Assembly: GCF_030733265.1 (NCBI RefSeq)
Contig: NZ_JASHJI010000001.1
Span: 620,001-684,000, forward strand
DNA from: Roseibium sp. MMSF_3412
GTDB taxonomy: Bacteria > Pseudomonadota > Alphaproteobacteria > Rhizobiales > Stappiaceae
DNA length: 64,000 bases
Reading direction: 5' to 3'
The number at the start of each line of letters is the position of its first letter. Position 1 is the stretch's first letter. Under the pieces are notes generated by a model, which did no database searches, was not told the DNA's origin, and saw only the letters and a list, made by a program, of their open reading frames with translations. The position numbers were made by a program, and so were the translations under genes. Of this stretch, positions 2,680-35,436 are shown piece after piece.

Positions 2680-4086
2680 GTGAGTGATCAGACGCCGACC
2701 AGCACCCGTCCCAACGCAGCCGACAGCTTGCGCGGTGTTCCCGACGGCGATGCCGCGCGCGAGTGGCTGCATGCCCGCAACATCGAGGACATCGAATGCA
2801 TCGTCCCCGACCTTGCCGGGGTCGCACGTGGCAAGATGATGCCGGTGGAGAAATTCTTCTCCGGGCCCGTGATGACAATGCCCGCCTCCATCTTCGCGCA
2901 GACGATCTCCGGCGACTATCCGGACGATGACGAGCGCTTCCAGCACAATCCGACCGATGGCGATCTCTATTTCCGGGCGGATTACAGCACTCTGACATCG
3001 GTGCCGTGGGAGAGCGATCCGACCGCCCAGCTCATCCATGACGCCTACACGCGCCAGGGTGCACCGGTCGAGACCGCCCCCCGTAACGTTCTGAAACGCA
3101 TTTTGAAACTCTATGATGACAAGGGATGGAAACCGGTCATCGCACCTGAAATCGAATTCTACCTGGTGCGGCCCAACACCGATCCGGACTACCCGCTCGA
3201 ACCGCCGACAGGCCGCTCGGGCCGTCCGGAGGTCGGCCGCCAGTCCTATTCCATTTCCGCCCTGAACGAATTCGACGAACTCATCGACGATATTTACGAC
3301 CTCTCCGAACAACAGGGTCTGGAGATCGATACCCTCATCCACGAGGAAGGCGCAGCGCAGATGGAAATCAACCTGCGCCACGGCAATCCGCTCGCCCTTG
3401 CGGATCAGGTCTTCCTGTTCAAGCGAACGATCCGCGAAGCCGCGCTCAGGCACGACATGTATGCAACCTTCATGTCCAAGCCGATGTCGCATCAGCCCGG
3501 CTCTGCAATGCATATCCACCAGTCCGTCATCGCCCGGGAAACCGGGCAGAACATCTTTGCGGGCGAGAACGGTGAAGAAACGCCGGCATTTCTCTCCTTC
3601 ATCGCCGGGCATCAGGTCTACCTGCCCAAGGTGACCTGCATCATGGCGCCGTTCGTGAACTCGTACCGGCGCTTTTCCAAGACATCGACATCGCCGGTGA
3701 ATGTCTACTGGGGCTATGACAACAGGACGGTGGGCCTGCGTGTGCCCTATTCCAGCCCGGAGGCACGGCGGCTTGAGAACCGCATTCCGGGGTCCGATGC
3801 CAATCCCTATCTTTCGATCGCGGCGAGCCTTGCCTGCGGCTATCTCGGCATCGTCAACGAACTGAAGCCGGATGCGCCCCGCAGCGACGACTGCACCGAG
3901 CTTGCCAAGTCGCTGCCACGCGGCTTGCCGGAGGCGGTTGCCCAGTTCGAAAATTCCGACGAGATGATCGAGGTGTTCGGCGAGCAATTCGTCGCCACCT
4001 ACCGCGCCATCAAATACGAAGAATTCGAAACCTTCATGTCCGTGATCAGTGCCTGGGAGCGGGAATATCTCCTGCTCAACGTCTGA
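2680..4086 (+). CDS. Glutamine synthetase family protein, second gamma-glutamylpolyamine synthetase
   Basis: This 468-residue GlnA/PuuA-family ligase starts at GTG. It carries PEIEFYL, AAQMEINLRHGNP, PGSAMHIHQS and WGYDNRTVGLRVPYSSPEARRLENR, followed by GSDANPYL. It differs clearly from the paralogue at 269-1657 (for example SAMHIHQS against NGMHVHVS), so the two are ancient paralogues and not a recent duplication. Together with the aminotransferase that starts 30 bp downstream it probably forms an operon preceded by the 18-bp palindrome. Family is secure; the actual amine substrate (putrescine, spermidine or another) is not visible. Confidence 0.85.
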   Translation: MSDQTPTSTRPNAADSLRGVPDGDAAREWLHARNIEDIECIVPDLAGVARGKMMPVEKFFSGPVMTMPASIFAQTISGDYPDDDERFQHNPTDGDLYFRADYSTLTSVPWESDPTAQLIHDAYTRQGAPVETAPRNVLKRILKLYDDKGWKPVIAPEIEFYLVRPNTDPDYPLEPPTGRSGRPEVGRQSYSISALNEFDELIDDIYDLSEQQGLEIDTLIHEEGAAQMEINLRHGNPLALADQVFLFKRTIREAALRHDMYATFMSKPMSHQPGSAMHIHQSVIARETGQNIFAGENGEETPAFLSFIAGHQVYLPKVTCIMAPFVNSYRRFSKTSTSPVNVYWGYDNRTVGLRVPYSSPEARRLENRIPGSDANPYLSIAASLACGYLGIVNELKPDAPRSDDCTELAKSLPRGLPEAVAQFENSDEMIEVFGEQFVATYRAIKYEEFETFMSVISAWEREYLLLNV

Positions 4087-4116
4087 TCCGTTCCCCCTTT
4101 TCCCGGAGTTCATGCC

Positions 4117-5511
4117 ATGACGGCCCATTCCAACATCTACCCGACAAAGGCCCTGCAGGAGATCGATGCCGCCCATCACTGGCATCCGTTTTCGGACATG
4201 AAGTCCCTTAATGCCGAGGGAAGCCGCATCGTCACGTCGGCCGATGGCGTCTGGATCACGGATTCGGACGGCAAGAAAATCCTCGACGGAATGGCGGGCC
4301 TCTGGTGCGTCCAGGTCGGTCATGGCCGGACCGAAATCGCCGACGCCGTCTATCGGCAGATGAACGAGCTTGCCTATTACAACACCTTCTTCAAGACGAC
4401 CCACCCGCCGGCAATCGCGCTCTCGGAGAAGCTGGCGAAGCTTGCCCCCGATCACATCAACACCGTCTTTTACTGTTCATCAGGTTCGGAAGCCAACGAT
4501 ACGGTTTTCCGGATGGTTCGCACCTACTGGGACAAGATGGGCAAGCCGGACAAGAAGGTCATCATCGGCCGTTGGAACGGCTATCACGGATCAACCCTTG
4601 CCGGTACGAGCCTGGGCGGCATGAAGGCCATGCATTCCCAGGGCGATCTGCCGGTGGCGGGCGTCCACCACATCGACCAGCCCTACTGGTTCGGCGAAGG
4701 CCAGGATATGAGCCCGGAGGAATTCGGGCTTCATGCGGCACGCAAGCTGGAACAAGCGATCGACGAAATCGGCGAAGACAATATCGCCGCCTTCATTGCC
4801 GAACCGATCCAGGGTGCGGGCGGGGTCATCATTCCGCCAGAGACCTACTGGCCGGAAGTGCGCCGTATCCTTGACGAGCGCGAGATCCTGTTTGTCTCCG
4901 ACGAAGTCATTTGCGGCTTCGGACGTCTCGGTGAATGGTTCGGCTCCAGCTATTTCGGCATGAAGCCTGACCTGATGCCCATTGCGAAGGGGCTGACGTC
5001 GGGTTACCTGCCGATGGGCGGCGTGCTTGTTTCCGACCGCGTGGCGGACGGTCTGATGAATGCGGGCGACGATTTCAATCACGGCTACACCTATTCCGGT
5101 CATCCCGTCTGTGCGGCGGCCGCACTTGCCAATCTGGAGATCATCGAACGGGAAAGCCTGGTGGACCGGGTCAAGTCCGATATCGGACCCTATCTGCAGG
5201 AGCGCTGGCGCACGCTCGGCGATCACCCGCTTGTCGGCGAAGCCCGCATGACCGGCCTGATGGGGGCGCTGGAACTCGTGCCCAACAAGGATGATCTGAA
5301 AAAAGCGTTCCCAGACGTCGGCACGGTCGGCACGATCTGCCGCGATATCTCGTTCCAGAACGGCATGGTCATGCGTGCCGTCCGGGACAGCATGATCATC
5401 TCGCCGCCGCTGGTGCTCAGCCACGAAGAAGCCGACTTCCTCGTCAAGACGGCGGAAAAGACGCTGGACGATACGTATCAGACGCTGAAAAAGGATGGCT
5501 GGCTCTCCTGA
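4117..5511 (+). CDS. Class III PLP-dependent aminotransferase, probable polyamine:pyruvate transaminase (SpuC-like)
   Basis: This is a 464-residue omega-amino acid:pyruvate type aminotransferase. Fold-type I landmarks are present: CSSGSEAND (120-128) for phosphate binding, NGYHGST (154-160), FIAEPIQGAGG, SDEV with Asp262, and the PLP lysine in AKGLTSGYLPMGG (Lys291). The N-terminal HHWHPFSDMK is typical of the SpuC/YgjG-like branch. The product would remove the terminal amino group of putrescine or a gamma-glutamylated amine to give an aldehyde. It follows the second puuA homologue by 30 bp and is probably cotranscribed. No aldehyde dehydrogenase follows; the next gene is convergent. Confidence 0.85.
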   Translation: MTAHSNIYPTKALQEIDAAHHWHPFSDMKSLNAEGSRIVTSADGVWITDSDGKKILDGMAGLWCVQVGHGRTEIADAVYRQMNELAYYNTFFKTTHPPAIALSEKLAKLAPDHINTVFYCSSGSEANDTVFRMVRTYWDKMGKPDKKVIIGRWNGYHGSTLAGTSLGGMKAMHSQGDLPVAGVHHIDQPYWFGEGQDMSPEEFGLHAARKLEQAIDEIGEDNIAAFIAEPIQGAGGVIIPPETYWPEVRRILDEREILFVSDEVICGFGRLGEWFGSSYFGMKPDLMPIAKGLTSGYLPMGGVLVSDRVADGLMNAGDDFNHGYTYSGHPVCAAAALANLEIIERESLVDRVKSDIGPYLQERWRTLGDHPLVGEARMTGLMGALELVPNKDDLKKAFPDVGTVGTICRDISFQNGMVMRAVRDSMIISPPLVLSHEEADFLVKTAEKTLDDTYQTLKKDGWLS

Positions 5512-15655: not shown

Positions 15656-15710
15656 CTTTAGTGGGCCGGCAAAGGCGTTGGCAGGCAGGCCACCTGCGAT
15701 GAGGCAGCCC

Positions 15711-15884
15711 TAGGGTACGGACCCATAAATGAAGCCATTTTGCCGTCCTTCGAATTTGGCCGTTTTGGCCATCTGCAGCGTCGCGAAAGGCTTGAAAATG
15801 AAGCACATTTCCTGCGCTTTCGCTCCTTGCAGTTGGTCAAAACGATCCAAACCAAATTGACTTCATTTATGGGTCCGTACCCTA
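15711..15884. mobile_element. MITE copy 2, 170-bp element with 22-bp perfect terminal inverted repeats
   Basis: The element spans 15713-15882 with TA duplications at 15711-15712 and 15883-15884; the reconstructed target is CTAG. Its first and last 22 bp are perfect inverted repeats beginning GGGTACGGACCCATAAATGA. The interior matches copy 1 (shared blocks include AAAGGCTTGAAAATGA and CCTGCGCTT). No transposase frame is present. Perfect ends suggest it is younger than copy 1. It lies between the MAPEG gene and the exosortase gene. Confidence 0.82.
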
Positions 15885-15976
15885 GCCTGCCGGTCCTTGC
15901 CGCGTTCGACCACTTTACGCAAAAACTGCACAAAGCCTGAAAACCGGTTGCAAGGGGAAGCGGCACAACATGCGTC

Positions 15977-17464
15977 ATGACACGCCTTGCTCCATATCCC
16001 CTGACCGCGGCCAGCTTCGTTCTTGCGTCCCTGATCCTTGCCGTTGAACCCGTTCGCTGGCTGGTCAACACCTGGTTGGATCCGTCCTATCCATCGACGG
16101 GAGCTCTCTACCTCGTGTTTATGCTGGGGCTCCTCTTATGGAGCCTCAGCAGTCCTGCGACCGGCGGAGATGCCCGGCACCGGCAAACGGCGCTCCTCCT
16201 TCTGATCGCTTCCGGATTTATCCGTTTCCTGAGCCAGGTGCTTGCAATCAATGTGATCGGCGGGTTCGCTCTTGCGCTCGACGTTTACGCTCTTGCCGTG
16301 TTGTTGCGCACCGGCAGCCGCAGGAGAGCGGTCTCTCCCTTCTGGCTGTCGGTCCTGTTCCTGTTCACGCTGCCCGTGGAGCGCATCCTCCAGCGGATTG
16401 CAGGCTATCCCTTACAGGAGATTTCCGCCGATCTGACCTGCAGGGCACTGGGCCTGTTCTTTTCCGAAATTCATTGTTCCGGCATCAGGATTGAACTCTC
16501 GGGCCAGGATGTTCTGGTCGACCTGCCGTGTTCAGGCACATCGGGGCTGATGCTCGCGCTGACCTTCGTCGTCGGTCTCAACGCGCTTTACCGGCCAAAG
16601 CTGCCAGTCGCCATATGCTGGATTGCTGTCACGCTTTTCCTGAGCGTCATGGCGAACGTCATCCGGATCGGCGTACTTGCCGTCGGCTTGTCTCATCCGG
16701 ATCAGATCTTCGGCCTCGATGTGATGGCAAATCCGCTCCATGATCTCATCGGTTACGTTGCCCTCGCGCTTTCACTGGTTCCCGTTCTTGTGTTTTACAA
16801 ACCGGGCCCCGCAGTGCGGGCCAGTCGTCCAATCAGCCGATTGCACTGGTCACCCAGCAGACCGGTCCGGCATCTGGGTTCACTCGTGTTCCTCTCCCTG
16901 GCACTCGTGATCGTCTCCTTGCCACGACAGGCGCTGGATGTTTCAGCAGCCGCGGAACCGCAACCGCTCCCCCTATCGATTGACGGCGAGTACGGCGTCG
17001 ACGAACCCCTGCTGCCGGTCGAACGGAGCTATTTCGAACAATATGGCGGTCATGCGCAAAAACGCCGGTATGGCGCCCTTTCCATGACGCTGGTGCACAC
17101 GACCTCACCCTTGCGGCATCTGCACGCTCCGGACGATTGCCTGCGCGGCCTCGGCTATGAGGTGGAGTTTCTCGGAACACGGTTCGCGCCGGTCCCCACC
17201 GCGCTCTACCGGGCGCGATCCAGGACCGGCGAAGAGTGGCGCGTCGCGGTGACATTCACGTCCAGCCGAGGCGAAACAACGCACAACATCGCGGAGGCAA
17301 TCTGGCTCTGGCTCAGAAATCCGGGCACCCGTTGGACGAGTGTCCAGCGCATTACCCCATGGAGCTTGCCGGAAAAACGCCAGACGGCCTTCGAAGCGGC
17401 GGCCATTGCCGCCCTCGACCTCCCCTCAGCCATTTCCAGTCAAACCAGAACCCGGGAAGGATGA
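15977..17464 (+). CDS. xrtT: Exosortase (XrtT-like) with EpsI-like C-terminal domain
   Basis: This 495-residue protein has about eight membrane helices and then a soluble C-terminal domain. The exosortase catalytic triad is visible: Cys185 in DLPCSGTSGL, Arg230 in ANVIRIG and His255 in NPLHDLIGY. The C-terminal part (about 310-490; HAPDDCLRGLGYEVEFLG, VTFTSSRGETTHNIAEAIWLW) resembles the EpsI/DUF3485 domain often fused to or beside exosortases. Exosortases process PEP-CTERM-type anchors in the inner membrane. The next gene, 4 nt downstream, encodes a VIT/VWA protein with such an anchor, and a two-component pair follows. The layout fits exosortase T; that subfamily name is from memory. Confidence 0.88.
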   Translation: MTRLAPYPLTAASFVLASLILAVEPVRWLVNTWLDPSYPSTGALYLVFMLGLLLWSLSSPATGGDARHRQTALLLLIASGFIRFLSQVLAINVIGGFALALDVYALAVLLRTGSRRRAVSPFWLSVLFLFTLPVERILQRIAGYPLQEISADLTCRALGLFFSEIHCSGIRIELSGQDVLVDLPCSGTSGLMLALTFVVGLNALYRPKLPVAICWIAVTLFLSVMANVIRIGVLAVGLSHPDQIFGLDVMANPLHDLIGYVALALSLVPVLVFYKPGPAVRASRPISRLHWSPSRPVRHLGSLVFLSLALVIVSLPRQALDVSAAAEPQPLPLSIDGEYGVDEPLLPVERSYFEQYGGHAQKRRYGALSMTLVHTTSPLRHLHAPDDCLRGLGYEVEFLGTRFAPVPTALYRARSRTGEEWRVAVTFTSSRGETTHNIAEAIWLWLRNPGTRWTSVQRITPWSLPEKRQTAFEAAAIAALDLPSAISSQTRTREG

Positions 17465-17468
17465 TCCA

Positions 17469-19709
17469 ATGACTCTTCTAGCCACATGTGCCGCCCGATG
17501 CGCGACAGTTCTTGTGATCTGTGCCGCCTGGCCTGCCCAGGCAACCCTGCCGACACCTGATGAAATGTCCGGTGCCGTCGTGGCGCAAGTCGATGGCAAG
17601 GAGGTTCACCTGCCCCTGCTGACGTCCGACTACAGGATCGAGATTGACGGCGACATCGCCCATGTCGAACTGACCCAAACGTTTCTGAACCCGGGCGCTC
17701 GGGCTGTTCATGCAACATATCTGTTTCCCATGAACCAGAAAGCTGCGATCCATGCGATGCGCGTCGATATGGACGGCGAAACACTGGTTGCCCGAATCCG
17801 GGAAAAGGCCGAGGCGGAAGCTGCATTCGAGAAGGCGAAGTCGGCGGGCAAAGGAGCTGCGCTCCTGACCCAGCACAGGCCGAACATGTTCACGCAGGAC
17901 ATCGCACATCTGATGCCCGGACGTCCGGTCAAGATCACACTCGAATACGTTCAGAATGTCGCAAAGATCGACGGCACCTACGAACTGGTGGTCCCGATGG
18001 TTGTCGGGCCGCGATATGAGCGGCAGGGCCTCGACAATCCGGTCAGGCTGTCCAGCTACGACGGCAAAGAAGCGGCGGACGCCGTTCCCTCCGACGATCA
18101 GGTTCCCACCGAAACCGTCTCCGGCTGGAACATCGACAAGCTGCCGGCCTATCCGGCCGTGATCGGCCAGGATGCGCCGAAGACAATCGATCCGGATCGC
18201 GTCGCTCTCAACCTCACACTGACGGCACCCATGCCGATCTCGCATGTCGACAGTCCAACACACGCGCTGACCGTAGACGGTGACCAGGCACAAAAGTCCG
18301 TCCGGTTCACATCGGGAAGGGAAATCGACAATCGCGACTTTGTACTCAGGTACGAGTTGAATTCGGAAAAGGACATTTCCGCCGGTCTCATGTCGCACTT
18401 CGACATCGAACACGGCGGCTATCTTTCTCTCCTCATCGAACCTCCGAAAGTGTCACCGGAGGCAATGATCGGACAGCGCGAGCTTGTCTTTGTCCTCGAC
18501 ACGTCAGGCTCCATGAGAAACCAGCCGATGGCGGCAAGCAAGGCATTCATGACCGCCGCGCTCCAGTCCCTCAGGCCGGACGACTATTTCCGCATCATCA
18601 GTTTTTCGAACAGTACGTCCCATTTCGCCGGCAATTCCCAATTGGCGAGCGCGCAGAACAAGCGGAATGCAATCAGTCACGTAAACGGGCTGAGTGCGGG
18701 CGGCGGCACGGAACTCAACCATGCCCTGAACGCGGCCTTCGACACGCAGCAGCCTGACAACACGATCCGCATCGTCGTCTTTCTGACGGATGGCTATATC
18801 GGCGATGAAAGGAACGTCATCAGATCGATCGCCGACCGCATCGGCAATGCCCGCATCTATTCCTTTGGTGTCGGAAACGCGGTCAATCGCTTCCTCCTTG
18901 AGGCGATGGCCAAGGAGGGCCGAGGCTACGTCCGCTATGTTCCTGTGAACGGGAACTATCGCGAAATAGCCGAGGATTTTGCCTCACAGCTGAAGACGCC
19001 GCTCCTGACAGATATCTCCGTCGACTGGAACGGACTGGCTGTCTCTGAACAGACGCCGGCGAAAATCCCGGATCTGTTTGAAGGCGGCTCCGTGCGCGTT
19101 CTTGGCAAATACGGAAGGGGAGGCAAGCATCGGATTTTTGTCAACGGTACCGTCAATGGCCGTGCGGCGTCTTTACCTCTCGACGTCGATCTTGATGCAG
19201 GTGGAGACGCCGCGGCCACAGGCTCTGAAAAGACATTGCCGCTGATCTGGGCCCGCGAGCAGATCTTCGACAAGAACCGCGCCTACACGATCGGCGGGAG
19301 CGTGGATGAGGGTCTCAAACAGGAGATTACCAGGCTCGGCCTGACATACTCCCTGCAGTCCCGCTTCACATCCTTCGTCGCGATCTCGGAAAGAACGGTC
19401 AACGCCGACCCGGCAAGTGCGCAAAACAAGAGCGTACCGCTGCCTCAGGTTTCGGGCGTTTCCAAATCGGCGTATCCGTCGTTGAACCTGAGCGGCAGCT
19501 CCGCGCCGGAGCCGGAAGGGATTGCAGGCCTGATGCTTGTTCTGCTGGCTCTGGCAGCACGCTTTCGAAAGACCATTGCTGCCATGTTCAAGCGCGGCAG
19601 GCACATTCCGTTCCGTAATCCGCACAGGTTGGCGATGCGGTCTGAGCGGACTACCGACACCACGCTTCCCCGGACGCTCCGGCGGGACAGCTGGTGGCTG
19701 GAAACATGA
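17469..19709 (+). CDS. VIT and VWA domain protein, predicted sole target of the exosortase
   Basis: The ATG at 17469 follows the exosortase stop by 4 nt and gives 746 residues. A signal peptide (TVLVICAAWPAQA) is followed by a VIT domain (about 35-155) and a VWA domain whose MIDAS motif DTSGSM starts at Asp344, with later GGGTEL and FLTDGYIGDE. A C-terminal tripartite signal follows: PEPEG at 680-684, a hydrophobic helix IAGLMLVLLALAA, then RFRK. Oddly, about 46 residues follow the basic cluster, where PEP-CTERM proteins normally end. The product is probably exported, anchored and then cleaved or transferred by the exosortase. The biological role of VIT/VWA targets is unknown. Confidence 0.88.
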   Translation: MTLLATCAARCATVLVICAAWPAQATLPTPDEMSGAVVAQVDGKEVHLPLLTSDYRIEIDGDIAHVELTQTFLNPGARAVHATYLFPMNQKAAIHAMRVDMDGETLVARIREKAEAEAAFEKAKSAGKGAALLTQHRPNMFTQDIAHLMPGRPVKITLEYVQNVAKIDGTYELVVPMVVGPRYERQGLDNPVRLSSYDGKEAADAVPSDDQVPTETVSGWNIDKLPAYPAVIGQDAPKTIDPDRVALNLTLTAPMPISHVDSPTHALTVDGDQAQKSVRFTSGREIDNRDFVLRYELNSEKDISAGLMSHFDIEHGGYLSLLIEPPKVSPEAMIGQRELVFVLDTSGSMRNQPMAASKAFMTAALQSLRPDDYFRIISFSNSTSHFAGNSQLASAQNKRNAISHVNGLSAGGGTELNHALNAAFDTQQPDNTIRIVVFLTDGYIGDERNVIRSIADRIGNARIYSFGVGNAVNRFLLEAMAKEGRGYVRYVPVNGNYREIAEDFASQLKTPLLTDISVDWNGLAVSEQTPAKIPDLFEGGSVRVLGKYGRGGKHRIFVNGTVNGRAASLPLDVDLDAGGDAAATGSEKTLPLIWAREQIFDKNRAYTIGGSVDEGLKQEITRLGLTYSLQSRFTSFVAISERTVNADPASAQNKSVPLPQVSGVSKSAYPSLNLSGSSAPEPEGIAGLMLVLLALAARFRKTIAAMFKRGRHIPFRNPHRLAMRSERTTDTTLPRTLRRDSWWLET

Positions 19710-19805
19710 AACGGCCTCGGTTGTTTCTTAACACCCTGCGTTGATAGTGACACACGCAGAAGTCCCGCATCCAAATACGGAAGCCCTCAAGCCCGGACCG
19801 GTCCA

Positions 19806-20513
19806 TTGCAGTCAAAAACCATACTCGTCGTTGACGATGACCCGAACATCCGCGAGGTGATCTGCTTCGCGCTACAAAAGGCTTCCTATCGCCACGAGGT
19901 CGCGACCGACGGCAAGGAGGCGCTCGACAAGACCGCACTTCATTCGCCGGCACTGATCATTCTCGATATCGGTCTGCCGGAGATGGACGGCCTGGATGTA
20001 TGCCGCGAAATCAGAAAAAGATCTGAGGTGCCGATCCTGTTTCTGTCGGCGCGCGACGATGAAATCGACCGGATCATCGGGCTTGAGCTTGGAGCGGATG
20101 ACTACGTCACCAAACCCTTCAGCCCGCGAGAACTGATCGCACGGGTCGGTGTCATCCTGAAACGCTACGGCGCGCCGCAGACCGCGCAAGCTCCCGAAAA
20201 CCCGATCCTGCAACATGGTGTGCTTGCCCTTGAGAAGGAAGCACGGCAGGTCAGGGTCGGGGATGCCGAGATCGGTCTGACGGCCATCGAGTTCGAAATC
20301 CTGTCCGCACTGATGGACCGGCCCAAGATCGTCTATACGCGCGAGCGCATTCTGGAGAAGGCCTACAAGGACAATATTCACGTTTCAGATCGTACAATCG
20401 ACAGCCATATCCGCAACATCCGGGCCAAGCTTGCGTCTGCCGGATGCGGCGATGCCATCGAGACAGTCCACGGTGTCGGCTTCCGGCTCGGTGCCTGCGA
20501 AAACACAAGCTGA
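19806..20513 (+). CDS. OmpR-family response regulator, dedicated to the exosortase system
   Basis: The 235-residue protein starts at TTG (19806), the only start that gives a normal receiver N-terminus (KTILVVDDDPNIREV). The receiver has the phospho-acceptor Asp54 in ILDIGLPEMDG and the lysine in DDYVTKPFSPREL. The C-terminal winged helix contains IGLTAIEFEILSALMDRPKIVYTRERIL and TIDSHIRNIRAKL. It lies 96 bp after the VIT/VWA gene and 12 bp before the histidine kinase. By analogy with the dedicated regulator pair of marine sortase systems, it probably controls this cassette. Confidence 0.9.
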   Translation: MQSKTILVVDDDPNIREVICFALQKASYRHEVATDGKEALDKTALHSPALIILDIGLPEMDGLDVCREIRKRSEVPILFLSARDDEIDRIIGLELGADDYVTKPFSPRELIARVGVILKRYGAPQTAQAPENPILQHGVLALEKEARQVRVGDAEIGLTAIEFEILSALMDRPKIVYTRERILEKAYKDNIHVSDRTIDSHIRNIRAKLASAGCGDAIETVHGVGFRLGACENTS

Positions 20514-20525
20514 CCCCGAGGCCGG

Positions 20526-22148
20526 ATGAAAGTCTCCAGCTCATTTCGAAACCGTTGGCGACCACCCCTCAGTCTGGTGATCGCGCTGGTCCTGGGGATC
20601 ATGCTGCTCGTCCCCCTTGGCGGGATCGTGTTTTTCCGCGTCTATGAAAACCAGTTGATCCAGACCACGGAAGGCGAGCTCATCGCGCAGTCGGCCGCAA
20701 TTGCGGCCGTCACCGCACAATATCTGACACAGCAAGGTGGTGACACGCTGCCTCTTGGACCCGTTGCCCGGCCGCCCTCGCCCTATTCCACAGGGCTGCT
20801 GTCCTCCTCCGTGCGCAGCTATGAAAACCGGCCAGCGGGAGGCTGGACGCCGCAGCTGCCCGTCCTGGATCTCAACCGGAATGCGGTGCTTCCCTCGCGC
20901 CCCGATCCGATCGCATCCAACCTTGAAATCCATCCGGCCTATGCGGCGGCTGGCAAGGCGATCGAGCCGGTGCTGAAAGGCACACAGAAGCTGACGCTCG
21001 CCGGTTTCAGGGTGCTCGATCCGAACGGGACCATCATCGCGGGACGGGACGACACCGGGCTTTCACTTGCGCATGTGGCGGAAGTCGAAAACGCGATGGC
21101 CGGACGCTACGCCAGCGTACTGCGCGAACGCGTCGTCCAGAACCCACAGCCGATCTATTCCATCAGCCGCGGCACCAGCGTGCGGGTGTTTACCGCCCTG
21201 CCGATCCTGATCGACAACCGGGTTGCAGGCATCGTCTATGCCTCGCGCACACCAAGCAACATCCTGAGGGAAATGTTTCTCAAATGGGAAACAGTCGCCC
21301 TGGTTCTCGCATTCGTGCTGAGCGCGACATTCGTGGTCGGCTTCATATTTGCGCGCGGGATTGCCGGCCCGATCAAGGCGCTCACGGACCGTTCCCTGAA
21401 GATCGGCCGTGGAGACCGCAGCGCCCTGGAACCGCTGCGCATCCACGGCAACCGGGAGATCCACGCCCTGTCGACCAGCATGCTGGAGACGTCGCGAAAA
21501 CTGTTTGACAGGAATGAGTACATCAACACCTTCGCCAACCACGTGACCCACGAATTGAAGACGCCGCTGACCGCGATACAGGGTGCCGCGGAACTGCTCA
21601 GAGATGGCGGGGCCGAGTTGAGCACCGCCGAGCGGGAAAAGTTTTTGAAGAACATCCTGAACGACACGGAACGGGCCTCGCGCCTTTTGAACAGGCTGCG
21701 CGAACTCGCCCGGGCCGACAGCGTGACAATCGGCGGTTCTTGCGAGCTGCCGGCTGTTCTGGAGGACATTCAAGGCAAGTTCGAGGACATTGAAATTGTG
21801 GCAGAGGGAGATCACAGCCTGCCGCTGTCTGCCGAGAATGCACGCATTGTGCTTGAAAACATGATCGACAACTCCGCCCGGCACGGCGCAAGCAAGATCG
21901 TGTTTTCGCTGAAGCAGGTGGCAAAGGGTCAACAGCTTCTGATCAGCGACAACGGAAACGGCATCTCGGCAGGAAACCAGGATCAGATATTCGATCTCTT
22001 TTTCACGACGCGCCGCGCAAGCGGCGGCACCGGAATGGGCCTCGGGATCATCCAGGCTCTGCTGAAGGCGCACAGTGCATCAATCGCACTGATTCCGAGC
22101 GAGAAAGGCGCCTGCTTTGAACTCCACTTTCCAGACACGGGGAAGTGA
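20526..22148 (+). CDS. Membrane sensor histidine kinase, partner of the adjacent response regulator
   Basis: The 540-residue kinase has an N-terminal membrane helix (LVIALVLGIMLLVPLGGIVFF), a periplasmic sensor of about 230 residues, a second helix (VALVLAFVLSATFVVGFIFA) and a HAMP-like linker. The HisKA H-box NHVTHELKTPLTAIQG has His342. The ATPase domain shows N-box MIDNSARHGA, DNGNGIS and GTGMGLGI. It starts 12 bp after the response regulator stop. Periplasmic sensing fits a role in monitoring surface-protein sorting or envelope state. The signal is unknown. Confidence 0.9.
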   Translation: MKVSSSFRNRWRPPLSLVIALVLGIMLLVPLGGIVFFRVYENQLIQTTEGELIAQSAAIAAVTAQYLTQQGGDTLPLGPVARPPSPYSTGLLSSSVRSYENRPAGGWTPQLPVLDLNRNAVLPSRPDPIASNLEIHPAYAAAGKAIEPVLKGTQKLTLAGFRVLDPNGTIIAGRDDTGLSLAHVAEVENAMAGRYASVLRERVVQNPQPIYSISRGTSVRVFTALPILIDNRVAGIVYASRTPSNILREMFLKWETVALVLAFVLSATFVVGFIFARGIAGPIKALTDRSLKIGRGDRSALEPLRIHGNREIHALSTSMLETSRKLFDRNEYINTFANHVTHELKTPLTAIQGAAELLRDGGAELSTAEREKFLKNILNDTERASRLLNRLRELARADSVTIGGSCELPAVLEDIQGKFEDIEIVAEGDHSLPLSAENARIVLENMIDNSARHGASKIVFSLKQVAKGQQLLISDNGNGISAGNQDQIFDLFFTTRRASGGTGMGLGIIQALLKAHSASIALIPSEKGACFELHFPDTGK

Positions 22149-22164
22149 CTGAAAGCTCCGGCGT

Positions 22165-22202
22165 TTGCTTAATCTTAAGCACGTCCCTTATGCCTTGCTT
22201 AA
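22165..22202. repeat. Direct repeat TTGCTTAA x2, 30-bp phase, with a TGCTTAA/TTAAGCA palindrome
   Basis: TTGCTTAA occurs at 22165-22172 and 22195-22202, about three helical turns apart. The first copy overlaps a perfect inverted repeat (TGCTTAA at 22166-22172, TTAAGCA at 22175-22181). The block lies between the kinase stop and the membrane spermidine-synthase-like gene. OmpR-family regulators usually bind direct repeats, so this may be a site for the adjacent response regulator. A weaker TTTCTTAA is at 19724, before the regulator gene. Confidence 0.4.
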
Positions 22203-22249
22203 CTTCAGCTTCGTAGTCTCTACCCGAGTATCTTTGTGGGGAAGACACG

Positions 22250-24550
22250 ATGCAACAGTCGCAGCAGACTTCGCTCCCGGCGGGCGAAGGCGGGCAATTC
22301 GGCATTGCCATTCCGGTGCTGCAGGTCTTTGCAGGCACCCTGTTCCTGAGCGCGTTCCTGCTTTTCTCCGTCCAGCCTTTCTTCTCCAAACTGGTCTTGC
22401 CGAAGCTCGGTGGCTCTCCGGGTGTCTGGTCCGTCGCCATGGTCTTCTTCCAGAGCGTTCTGCTTCTGGGATACACCTACGCGCATTTGCTGACGCGCTA
22501 CCTCAAGACAAAACATGCGATGCTCGTTCACGCGCTTGTCCTGTTGTCCGCATGTCTGTTCCTGCCGCTCGGGATCGCAAGCGGGTGGGACACACCGCCA
22601 GCCGAATATCAGGAGATCTGGCTGCTTGGATTGTTCGCCGTTTCCGTCGGATTGCCGTTTTTTGCCGTCTCCGCGAATGCACCTTTGCTGCAGGCCTGGT
22701 TCACGCAAACCGGCCACAAACATGCCGCCGATCCCTATTTCCTTTACGGTGCGAGCAATATCGGTAGTTTCGCGTCGCTCTATCTTTACATTCTCGTGCT
22801 GGAACCGGCTCTGAAACTCGGAACGCAGTCGCTGCTCTGGACCGCCGGATATCTTGGCCTGATCGTTTCGATCCTGCTTTGCGCCGCCGCAGTCCTTCGC
22901 CGGCCGCAATCCGCGCCGGCCGGCCAATCCGGCAACAACGCCAGTGACGGCCCGTCCCCCGCAAAACCCATTCCGGCAAGGCGGATCCTTGTCTATCTCG
23001 GCCTTGCCGCAGTGCCCTCGGCCCTGACGATTGCACTTACCGCGCATATCGCTGTCGACATCGCCTCCGCGCCCTTCATGTGGGTGGTGCCACTGTCGCT
23101 GTTCCTGCTGACCTTCGTGATCGCTTTCAAAACCAGACCGCTCATCTCCGTTGAATTCCTCTCCGGCCTCCTGCCGTTCGCAGCGATCCTCGCGGCAACG
23201 GTGATCTTTCTGCCCAAGATCCTGCCGCTCACCTTCAGTCTCGGCGCCAATCTGGTGGTCTACTTCATCGCGGTGCTCTTTTGCCATGCGCGCCTCTACC
23301 AGTTGCGTCCGCACGCAAGCCAGCTGACCGCCTTCTATCTGTGGATGTCGGTCGGGGGCGTCCTCGGCGGCATCTTCGCAGGTCTCATCGCACCCAACAT
23401 CTTCGATTGGGTCGCGGAGTATCCGATGCTGATGCTGGCGGCGCTGTTCCTGCTGCCGCTCAAGAACGGTGCCACGTCCGCCTCCGTGTCGAAGACGATT
23501 GCCTTTGGCGCCGCGTTGACTTTTCTCTTCTGGATCGGCCTCACGCGCGGTTGGATACCCGATGTCCAAAGGCATGAGGTGATCGTCGTCCTGATCATCA
23601 CACTGGTGGTTTTCGCCGCACTTGCCCAACTCAAACGGCAGGCAATCGCGCACATCCTTCTTGTTCTGACCGTGCCGCTGGTCCTGCTGCTTCAGCTTCA
23701 CCCGAGCATCGTTCACACCGAGCGTTCGTTCTTCGGTGTCGTGAAGGTCAAGGACACGGATGACGGCGCCTATCGCCGGATGGTCCACGGCACAACCGTT
23801 CACGGCAGCATCGCGATGAGCGCCTTCGAGGCCGAGAACGGCGAAGGTTCGCCCGAACCCCTCGCCTACTATCACGAGACAGGCGAGATGGCGGCAACGC
23901 TTCATGCGGCGCGAGCCTCCACAAGCGGGGCGCTCGGACATATCGGCGTCGTCGGTTTGGGAACGGGAAGCTTCCTGTGCCACCGCAATGCCGGCGAAAC
24001 CTGGACGGTCTACGAAATCGACAAGTCGGTGATAGATGTTGCCTCCAACCCATCCTATTTCCGCTTCATCTCCGACTGCGGTCCGGACACGAAGATGGTT
24101 CTGGGAGATGCCCGGCTCACGCTGGATGCGGAACCGGACCGCAAGTTCGACTATCTTCTGATCGATGCCTTTTCTTCGGACTCCATTCCCGTGCACCTGA
24201 TGACACGCGAAGCCATCAATCTGTTTTTCTCGAAAATCGGCGAAAACGGTCTCCTGGCCATGCATATCTCGAACAGATATCTCGAACTGGCCAGCGTTCT
24301 GGCAGCCATCGCGGAGATCGACGGATATGCCATACGTTTCGCGTCATACGGGGCCGATCAAAATCCGGACCGGCCCGAGCAGGTCTTCAAGGCGAATGTG
24401 ATGGTTTTTGCCCGCGACGAAGCCGATCTCGGGCCACTGCTTGATGACGTCAGATGGCAACCCGTTTCCGCAAACGGTACGGCCCCCTGGACAGACGACT
24501 ATTCAAATATCGTCGGTGCGATCATCCGGCACGAGTCCGGCAAGGACTGA
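22250..24550 (+). CDS. Membrane-fused spermidine-synthase-like protein (MFS/SpdSyn fusion)
   Basis: The 766-residue protein has an N-terminal multi-helix membrane region (about 13 segments to residue 480; FLSAFLLFSVQPFFSKLVLPKLGGSPGVWSVAM in two runs) and a C-terminal soluble domain with the methyltransferase-like SAM site VVGLGTGSF near residue 567, VYEIDKSVID and LIDAFSSDSIPVHLMT. This architecture is widespread and uncharacterised; the soluble part resembles polyamine aminopropyltransferases but usually lacks proof of activity. It follows the exosortase two-component pair on the same strand with a 101-bp gap bearing repeats. Membership in that system is plausible but unproven. Confidence 0.82.
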   Translation: MQQSQQTSLPAGEGGQFGIAIPVLQVFAGTLFLSAFLLFSVQPFFSKLVLPKLGGSPGVWSVAMVFFQSVLLLGYTYAHLLTRYLKTKHAMLVHALVLLSACLFLPLGIASGWDTPPAEYQEIWLLGLFAVSVGLPFFAVSANAPLLQAWFTQTGHKHAADPYFLYGASNIGSFASLYLYILVLEPALKLGTQSLLWTAGYLGLIVSILLCAAAVLRRPQSAPAGQSGNNASDGPSPAKPIPARRILVYLGLAAVPSALTIALTAHIAVDIASAPFMWVVPLSLFLLTFVIAFKTRPLISVEFLSGLLPFAAILAATVIFLPKILPLTFSLGANLVVYFIAVLFCHARLYQLRPHASQLTAFYLWMSVGGVLGGIFAGLIAPNIFDWVAEYPMLMLAALFLLPLKNGATSASVSKTIAFGAALTFLFWIGLTRGWIPDVQRHEVIVVLIITLVVFAALAQLKRQAIAHILLVLTVPLVLLLQLHPSIVHTERSFFGVVKVKDTDDGAYRRMVHGTTVHGSIAMSAFEAENGEGSPEPLAYYHETGEMAATLHAARASTSGALGHIGVVGLGTGSFLCHRNAGETWTVYEIDKSVIDVASNPSYFRFISDCGPDTKMVLGDARLTLDAEPDRKFDYLLIDAFSSDSIPVHLMTREAINLFFSKIGENGLLAMHISNRYLELASVLAAIAEIDGYAIRFASYGADQNPDRPEQVFKANVMVFARDEADLGPLLDDVRWQPVSANGTAPWTDDYSNIVGAIIRHESGKD

Positions 24551-34650: not shown

Positions 34651-35436
34651 ATGACCGACCGCCTGCCCCTGTCCGCGTTCATCATTTCAAAGAACGAAGC
34701 CGACCGGATCAGCCGGCCGATCGAGAGCGTGATCGGCTGGGTGGACGAGGTCATCGTCGTCGACAGCGGTTCAACGGATGACACGGTGGCCGTCGCCGAA
34801 GGGCTTGGTGCACGCGTGGTGCACCATGACTGGAAGGGCTACGGCCCGCAGAAACGCTACGGCGAAGAGCAATGCCGAAACGACTGGCTGCTTAACCTCG
34901 ACGCGGACGAGGAAGTCACACCCGAGCTTGCGGACGAAATAAAATCGAAATTCGCCGATAACAGCTACACCAACGCGGACGGCTGGCGCATCATGATCCG
35001 CGACATGTATGCCCACGAAATCGCCCCTGCGCCCTGGGCCTACGGATACCATCAGATCCGTCTCTACGATCGCCGGAAAGGGCGTTTTTCCGCATCGACC
35101 GTACACGACACGGTTCGGCCTGAAGAGGGCGCGGAGATCAACGATCTTGCCGGGATCATGGCGCATCGCTCGATCCGCTCGCTCGACTTCCAGGTCGGCA
35201 AGTACAATCGTTACTCGGGCATGCAGGTGGAAGACATGCGCACGCGGGGGCGCACGTTGCGGAGGTCCCGCCTCCTGACCGAATTCCCGGTCAGCTTCTT
35301 CAAGGCGTATTTCGTGCGAAAATACCGCAAATACGGCTGGTGGGGCTTCATCCTGTCCGTGAACTACGCCCACGCGCGCTTCCTGCGCGTTGCAAAAGCC
35401 TATGAGGCGGACCTGCTCGGCAAACAAGGCGAGTAG
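34651..35436 (+). CDS. Glycosyltransferase family 2, LPS core type (WaaE/KdtX-like)
   Basis: The 261-residue protein has a GT-A fold with LSAFIISKNEADRISRPIESV, VDSGSTDDTVAVAEGLGARV, a DADEEV metal-binding stretch (DXD-like) and late KYNRYSGMQVEDMRTRG and FFKAYFVRKYRKYGWWGF. This pattern is typical of the beta-1,4-glucosyltransferase WaaE/KdtX group acting on the lipopolysaccharide inner core. It is a single gene after the alpha-glucosidase, convergent with the REC/HD-GYP gene. The sugar transferred is not predictable. Confidence 0.82.
   Translation: MTDRLPLSAFIISKNEADRISRPIESVIGWVDEVIVVDSGSTDDTVAVAEGLGARVVHHDWKGYGPQKRYGEEQCRNDWLLNLDADEEVTPELADEIKSKFADNSYTNADGWRIMIRDMYAHEIAPAPWAYGYHQIRLYDRRKGRFSASTVHDTVRPEEGAEINDLAGIMAHRSIRSLDFQVGKYNRYSGMQVEDMRTRGRTLRRSRLLTEFPVSFFKAYFVRKYRKYGWWGFILSVNYAHARFLRVAKAYEADLLGKQGE

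Follow-up and report, generated by a model that had tools for sequence, protein, structure and literature searches.

An exosortase T cassette of Roseibium with one proposed VIT/VWA substrate, a CreBC-like sensor pair and a putative operator

The stretch analyzed here (the window) comprises 64,000 nucleotides (nt) of Roseibium sp. MMSF_3412 (positions 620,001 to 684,000 of contig NZ_JASHJI010000001.1, from the 6.24-Mb assembly GCF_030733265.1), and all coordinates follow its own numbering. Within it lies a unit of four genes: in order, xrtT, encoding an exosortase; a gene for a VIT/VWA protein; and the genes of an OmpR-type response regulator (RR) and a histidine kinase (HK). We consider it probable that this XrtT module is a one-enzyme, one-substrate surface-display unit under its own CreBC-like two-component pair, and comparison with related loci suggests that this pair, a sensor system of the envelope-stress type, switches it on by way of a conserved DNA box. 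The features of the locus are the following.

15916..15960, + strand: proposed operator 5' of xrtT, half-sites 11 bp apart; 18-bp matrix score 29.8 of 31.3, with the same box in relatives
15977..17464, + strand: xrtT, exosortase T; 702.6 bits to NF033770; Cys185, Arg230 and His255 invariant in 79/79 aligned XrtT proteins
17469..19709, + strand: VIT/VWA protein, proposed single substrate of XrtT; Pfam VIT 97.8 bits and VWA_3 70.6 bits; fold match to inter-alpha-inhibitor heavy chain 1 (E 2.8e-38)
19494..19520, + strand: PEP-type anchor GSSAPEPEG, followed by a transmembrane helix; PEP within the last 95 residues of 67/71 uncut VIT open reading frames (ORFs)
19665..19706, + strand: C-terminal motif LPRTLRRDSWWLET (the 'DGWW' motif), predicted to be cytoplasmic
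19806..20513, + strand: OmpR-type RR, CreB-like, TTG start; best NCBIfam model CreB, 238.7 bits, under the cut-off of 273
20526..22148, + strand: membrane HK, CreC-like, two predicted transmembrane helices; best NCBIfam model CreC, 132.2 bits, under the cut-off of 356

The exosortase and its substrate

The gene at 15977-17464 is XrtT, already a named and curated NCBI family; its product far exceeds the NF033770 cut-off (250 bits) and covers the profile at full length (positions 3-472 of 472). The original prediction, made from the DNA alone, had described an exosortase with intact Cys185, Arg230 and His255, a VIT/VWA protein 4 nt further on, and an RR and HK. Profile scores and coordinates bear out this four-gene unit, and the three catalytic residues are not only present but invariant in an alignment of the window's protein with those of 78 of 80 related loci, the partial copies in L181 and L183 being left out. 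The EpsI-like domain said to be fused to the enzyme is supported by the full-length NF033770 and XrtO models only, whereas Pfam yields Exosortase_EpsH alone.

Among the best 80 of the 84 XrtT loci found, a VIT gene lies directly 3' of xrtT in 72, a pairing that is therefore more than chance and that upholds the predicted match of one exosortase to one VIT/VWA target. The eight exceptions comprise four in which the sequence runs out at the contig edge or just past xrtT (L176, L178, L180, and L181), an overlapping-ORF artefact (L151), two in which xrtT and VIT are separated (L166 and L172), and one broken locus (L183). All four genes occur together in nine loci of other genomes with several different flanks (L088-L095 and L098), although in L095 the kinase is split across two ORFs. 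More broadly, loci with an exosortase, one VIT/VWA target, and a two-component pair are found in Alphaproteobacteria, Gammaproteobacteria, and Nitrospinota.

Both the VIT and the VWA domain of the putative substrate pass their Pfam cut-offs, and the protein has the residues of the metal site (D344xSxS, T414, and D441). Its AlphaFold model (mean predicted local distance difference test, pLDDT, 73.8) has inter-alpha-inhibitor heavy chain 1 as its best match (6fpy; template modelling scores 0.56/0.68). In the model, a helix spans residues 682-710, past the PEP motif, and the tail at 713-746 is of low confidence and presumably disordered. The predicted PEP-type anchor holds in part. GSSAPEPEG is found at residues 676-684, ahead of the predicted transmembrane helix, but it scores 14.7 bits against TIGR02595, under the cut-off of 16, and is followed by 62 further residues. 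Copies in relatives do pass this cut-off (17.1 bits in G047, and also those of G019, G025, and G030). The C terminus consists of PEP, helix, and basic run, closing in a tail that is conserved and unusual; where this tail is missing, the protein in most loci stops shortly past the basic run, as judged by eye.

XrtT looks dedicated to one substrate, though its own genome holds other sorting signals. A second exosortase, XrtD (TIGR04152, 559 bits against a cut-off of 400), is encoded at L099:9761-11371 next to a VPLPA-CTERM protein, and eight VPLPA-CTERM proteins of this genome exceed the TIGR03370 cut-off. The VIT/VWA gene is absent among the 19 matches to this model in its own genome at E up to 1, and the comparison shows its predicted sorting signal to be distinct from the VPLPA signal of XrtD. 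In 61 genomes, we counted over-cut-off PEP-CTERM proteins without the VIT gene, and other exosortases only as they surfaced in the search with the XrtT model. The mean count was 0.5 in the six genomes with XrtT only, versus 6.2 in the five with both, 5.3 in the three with another exosortase only, and 0.3 in the 47 with neither; one of these 47, G038, has seven PEP-CTERM proteins and may hold an exosortase that the XrtT model missed. XrtT appears dedicated because the VIT/VWA protein is not among the VPLPA-CTERM matches and because counts in XrtT-only genomes are near background; by the same XrtD/VPLPA result and counts, the possibility that XrtT serves many PEP-CTERM proteins was rejected. Other PEP-CTERM substrates in the genome, named beforehand as evidence against a self-contained system, literally exist, yet XrtD accounts for them.

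The upstream box and the CreBC-like pair

The regions upstream of xrtT in eight Stappiaceae have in common a direct repeat with an 11-bp step, the 18-bp core of which lies 61 to 44 nt before the ATG. In the window, the half-sites are TACGC (15916), TGCAC (15927), TGAAA (15938), and TGCAA (15949); exact 6- to 7-mer repeats 5' of xrtT were not found, the box being an imperfect repeat. The matrix was built from these eight sites, so the score at 15916 is that of a training site; the next best score in the window is 15.7. In 74 loci from outside the matrix family, scanned on the plus strand from -130 to +100 relative to the called xrtT ORF start, a matrix score of at least 13 was reached in 54, compared with 0.46% of 4389 random windows of the same loci. 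The plain pattern TGCAC-N6-TGCAC was matched at 8 or more of 10 letters in 64/74 loci (control, 7.4%), at 9 or more in 51/74 (0.52%), and perfectly in 37/74 (0/4389).

The box also goes with the two-component pair. The pair was scored within the fetched sequence, and 14 of the 80 loci were excluded (12 lay close to contig ends, one had half the pair, and one had xrtT too near the edge). In the remainder, a box of at least 8/10 was present in 55/56 loci with both RR and HK versus 4/10 without (Fisher p 1.5e-5), and a box of at least 9/10 in 47/56 versus 2/10 (p 1.4e-4). In loci that carry the DGWW motif (see below) without XrtT, at least 8/10 was found in 16/16, no more than 420 nt 5' of the motif, and at least 9/10 in 13 (15.8% and 2.3%, respectively, of 2400 control windows); in L227 the main box site falls just outside the upstream sequence scanned. 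One locus in which the pair adjoins a DUF4153 protein gene, L321, has a 9/10 box. Comparison thus shows an 11-bp direct repeat to recur in nearly all pair-holding loci close to where the first gene begins, including those in which a stand-alone motif ORF or a DUF4153 gene comes first.

The same 11-bp layout is seen in the published cre/blr tag, TTCACN6TTCAC, which PMC4689548 describes as critical for CreB/BlrA binding. The canonical tag was not found at 9/10 or better near xrtT in the window, and only one stray exact match was obtained in 17 Roseibium and Stappia loci; as a positive control, the scan recovered the E. coli creD tag. Perfect TTCAC-N6-TTCAC sites do occur near the VIT start in three of four operons of the same phylum, from other classes, that combine VIT with an unfused exosortase: at -111 in L277, at -123 in L278, and, in L281, 203 nt into the longest called ORF, with none in L279. 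The L281 operon follows directly on homologues of creB and creC, which are 46.7% and 37.8% identical to those of E. coli. In L277, L278, and L281 the VIT gene precedes the unfused exosortase gene, and L277 and L278 also contain a separate EpsI-like ORF. Together, the comparisons suggest that TGCAC-N6-TGCAC is the operator of the CreBC-like pair.

Residues D54 of the RR and H342 of the HK are present. Among the best 50 matches of the predicted HK structure (pLDDT 76.7, predicted template modelling score 0.48) are histidine kinases and other signalling proteins. The regulators of class GN sortase systems are poor matches: the RR scores 162.1 bits against TIGR03787 (cut-off 335.7) and the HK 67.8 bits against TIGR03785 (cut-off 612.2). 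In an RR tree of 57 sequences, six of seven class GN regulators form a separate clade on long branches (100/100), and the exception, from L299, is an outlier on a long branch that scores only 30 with the model; in an HK tree of 52 sequences, all five class GN kinases are likewise separate on long branches (support 100). Pairs of the XrtT type, the DUF4153 type, and the stand-alone type interleave, with at least six well-supported changes of XrtT label in each tree. The pair is not exosortase-specific, since its relatives adjoin DUF4153 proteins or stand alone. Genes for DUF4153 membrane proteins were observed beside the same two-component family in L273, L274, L276, L234, L235, L321, and L332, and four HK-family loci with neither XrtT nor DUF4153 (L325, L326, L328, and L330) were treated as more distant pairs. 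The label 'CreBC-like' is based on the ranking of models and on the box, not on the trees.

A short motif that accompanies the pair

In Roseibium and Stappia substrates, a variable tail follows the helix and finishes with LPRSLRRDGWWLE(T/S) or a close variant. This motif was found in 16/80 XrtT loci: in the predicted cytoplasmic linker of XrtT (L114, L115, L130, L135, L146, L147, and L149), in the VIT tail (L104-L108, L111, L112, and L117), or, in L155, within a small ORF on the opposite strand close to where HK ends. At the DNA level, the pattern R-D-x-W-W-L-E had one match each in 16 of 61 genomes (3 for the backward control), and these included genomes without XrtT, in which the motif closes a short ORF directly 5' of the orthologous RR. 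An HK ortholog (E below 1e-200) is present in 17 Roseibium genomes, eight with XrtT and nine without, and the motif accompanies the pair in all 17, every XrtT-less genome included; in G006 and G028 it has K for R and is hence missed by the pattern. On a tree of RR and HK combined, the presence of XrtT changes four times, at least twice on well-supported branches.

Over the 15 motif codons of the nine stand-alone ORFs, the ratio of nonsynonymous to synonymous polymorphism (pN/pS) is 0.18, compared with 0.83 over the preceding 20 codons, and because of this difference the motif of the stand-alone peptide appears to be translated and selected, and the stretch before it not. Within the motif codons, 25 of 35 extra bases fall at third positions. 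In one genome, G013, the VIT ORF (L233 and L097) stops at ...VPDRVAKDG, where WW would come, and the XrtT match has an internal stop; the XrtT system of this genome may be decaying.

A wider motif pattern, which misses the S variant of the window itself, gave seven matches in 385 alphaproteobacterial genomes (backward control, two). Four are coding and fall within XrtT or next to the same pair where a DUF4153 gene accompanies it, and three look like chance. The latter (L238, L241, and L242) were not accepted; the L238 site, rescored in L275, reaches 15.9 bits, under all accepted instances. A search for the HK family at E up to 1e-60 in an alphaproteobacterial class sample returned 19 of 372 genomes, with the motif in seven, absent in nine, and no upstream sequence in three. 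Next to DUF4153 genes, the motif lies at or before the N terminus in L273, L274, L276, L234, L235, and L332, and not in L321. The motif model separates 24 instances at 19.2 bits or more from a next best of 15.9, a gap that is partly by construction because the same instances built the model.

The distribution suggests that a short conserved peptide stays with the sensor pair even after loss of the surface protein. The stable core would then be the pair and the box, joined by the motif in part of the Alphaproteobacteria, with XrtT-VIT and DUF4153 as apparent alternative partners.

The fifth gene within the coordinates of the original prediction (22250-24550) is a fused major facilitator superfamily/spermidine synthase (57.6 bits, cut-off 40) and is a neighbour rather than part of the cassette. 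It adjoins only two of the nine other four-gene loci, L091 and L092, both with the flank of the window, and also lies beside the pair in two XrtT-less genomes (L228 and L229); it was excluded on these grounds, as it tracks the flank rather than the cassette. Between the upstream gene and the xrtT operator, positions 15710-15885 hold an element resembling a miniature inverted-repeat transposable element, with terminal inverted repeats (CTAGGGTACGGACCCATAAATGAAG); its repeat core has 56 matches in the genome at up to one mismatch (backward control, 0), and the element was not seen 5' of xrtT in L091 or L092. In L111, the complete cassette is preceded by a second but partial match to xrtT (3837-4490), which has a box of its own. 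The Roseibium genome also encodes a second VIT/VWA protein (L280:8245-10371), which falls outside the exosortase and sortase target clades and has no XrtT-model match beside it in the 19 kb covered.

Proposed mechanism, alternatives and implications

In the mechanism that we propose, the kinase would sense an envelope signal and the phosphorylated regulator would bind the box and turn on xrtT-VIT. XrtT would then cut the VIT/VWA protein at PEP and hand it to an envelope anchor. Less certainly, the DGWW tail, freed from the ectodomain by the cut or still attached if uncut, might act as a feedback signal to the kinase or regulator. By analogy with CreBC-CreD, the purpose of the module would be envelope integrity. 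The cytoplasmic motif is a likely contact to the pair. A more specific and still tentative proposal, to which we give somewhat less than an even chance, is that P-x-x-L-x-x-D-G-W-W-L is a portable cytoplasmic peptide and private ligand of the CreBC-like pair, fused in turn to the exosortase substrate, the exosortase, or DUF4153 proteins, or kept as a stand-alone micro-protein, so that the pair could sense the state of the membrane system that carries it.

Several observations weigh against the proposed module and its mechanism. The box was spotted by eye in eight sites before testing, and the copy in the window reaches only 8/10 by the simple count of two TGCAC half-sites. The link of box to pair has exceptions: a 9/10 box stands in two loci that lack a pair, L118 and L122, and the box of L121, where the pair is present, reaches only 7/10. 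No good box lies close before the called start in the DUF4153 loci L323, L327, and L329, although in L323 a site of 15.9 bits falls within an ORF that was called too long. Away from the cassette, TGCAC-N6-TGCAC is matched perfectly at 34809 (+) and 34823 (-). RR and HK both fall under the CreB and CreC cut-offs, and E. coli CreB, PhoB, CreC, and PhoR lie outside the XrtT group in the RR and HK trees. Finally, the motif is present in only 16/80 XrtT loci and absent from 9/16 HK-family loci with upstream sequence, and it therefore cannot be essential to the module. As an observation on its own, the perfect site at 34807-34825 is palindromic and is read on both strands.

The original prediction had proposed that a class GN sortase system kept its substrate class and regulators and only exchanged its sortase for an exosortase. 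In that known system (TIGR03785, TIGR03787, and TIGR03788), the processing enzyme of which we take to be a class GN sortase, the target is a VIT/VWA protein of a neighbouring clade; the window's VIT/VWA protein scores 427 bits against TIGR03788, under the cut-off of 551.65. In a quick tree of 64 targets, some on long branches, the 34 XrtT targets form one clade (Shimodaira-Hasegawa approximate likelihood ratio test support 100) and the 18 class GN targets another (98). The XrtT targets group with those of unfused exosortases (99), together with L335, and a long-branch pair, L336 and L342, meets the exosortase and class GN groups at the same node (86), so that the two are neighbours that may or may not be strict sisters. 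Neighbouring target clades fit a change of enzyme over a kept substrate class, and an OmpR-type RR and an HK occur nearby in 6/18 and 5/18 fetched class GN loci, as in the window. However, class GN targets have an LPxTA-like C-terminal signal, the window's RR and HK miss the class GN cut-offs widely, the class GN regulators fall in the separate clades described above, and no TGCAC or TTCAC box above 8/10 was found near the target start in 18 class GN loci. Unrelatedness, named beforehand as evidence against the swap, was found for the regulators and not for the targets, and the swap survives for the substrates alone. Relatives of the pair, moreover, are found next to DUF4153 proteins or on their own. 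An enzyme swap with kept regulators is largely refuted as to the regulators, and as a whole we regard it as improbable.

Other explanations were considered for the motif and box. The motif could serve the docking or retention of XrtT and its substrate on each other (or at the membrane) with no relation to the pair; its two places, the tail of the substrate and the linker of XrtT, are both predicted to be cytoplasmic and would let it hold enzyme and substrate together. This is unlikely given that, apparently through selection, the motif has been kept next to the pair in nine Roseibium genomes that lack XrtT and VIT, and beside DUF4153 in other genomes. It is very improbable that the region is a cis-acting leader in which translation of a Trp-rich peptide controls read-through into the regulator gene by attenuation. 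Two Trp codons and a hairpin-like sequence (by eye) do precede the RR gene in several loci, but elsewhere the motif is inside xrtT or at or before the DUF4153 start, far from RR, and the upstream residues P, L, R, and D are conserved with free third positions. An ordinary XrtT module, regulated locally by its pair and with box and motif lacking any linked function, would agree with the curated status of XrtT and with PrsK/PrsR of PEP-CTERM/EpsH systems, for which PMC1569441 ties a kinase, a regulator, and an upstream DNA element to an exosortase. PrsK/PrsR differs in its sigma-54-interacting regulator, sigma-54-type site, and exopolysaccharide loci (PMC1569441). The box statistics, the link of box to pair, and retention of the motif without XrtT speak against so plain a module, which we judge to be quite unlikely.

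The pairing of VIT proteins with exosortases and the XrtT family itself are already known from the NCBI family names XrtN and NF033770. The window protein shows no family-level difference from exosortase T (NF033770) in its full-length match, catalytic residues, and VIT/VWA neighbour. The XrtN system, which occurs in Bacteroidota, likewise has a VIT-domain protein (TIGR04477) assigned to an exosortase by family name, but its exosortase belongs to another family. What this analysis adds is the TGCAC-N6-TGCAC operator, as proposed here, and the LPRSLRRDGWWLE motif at the cytoplasmic end of the substrate. Among the matches listed, literature searches returned nothing on XrtT together with exosortase, and in mostly subscription-free literature nothing linking exosortase to CreBC or to Roseibium, nothing on marine proteobacterial sortase with exosortase, and nothing on class GN sortase; for DUF4153 together with a histidine kinase, one paper was listed. 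The closest regulatory parallel is CreBC/BlrAB with CreD in E. coli, Aeromonas, Pseudomonas, and Stenotrophomonas, for which PMC4689548 describes a direct-repeat tag with an 11-bp period 5' of a membrane-protein operon; the window's RR and HK are closest to CreB and CreC among NCBIfam models but differ in the half-site (TGCAC, not TTCAC), the sub-cut-off scores, and the output, a surface-display operon. The search for CreD covered four loci of other classes only.

In sum, a conserved operator offers a direct handle on two questions that many exosortase systems pose, namely at what time they make their products and what these do. The proposed operator predicts the regulator, the regulon, and, by the CreBC parallel, the inducing condition, which would be envelope damage. 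The VIT/VWA tree provides a starting point from which to trace exchange between sortase and exosortase. If the DGWW peptide binds the pair, a two-component system would here have a new means of monitoring, from within the cell, how membrane proteins are processed, and if it is indeed a private ligand, the peptide would report in XrtT systems whether the surface protein has been cut.

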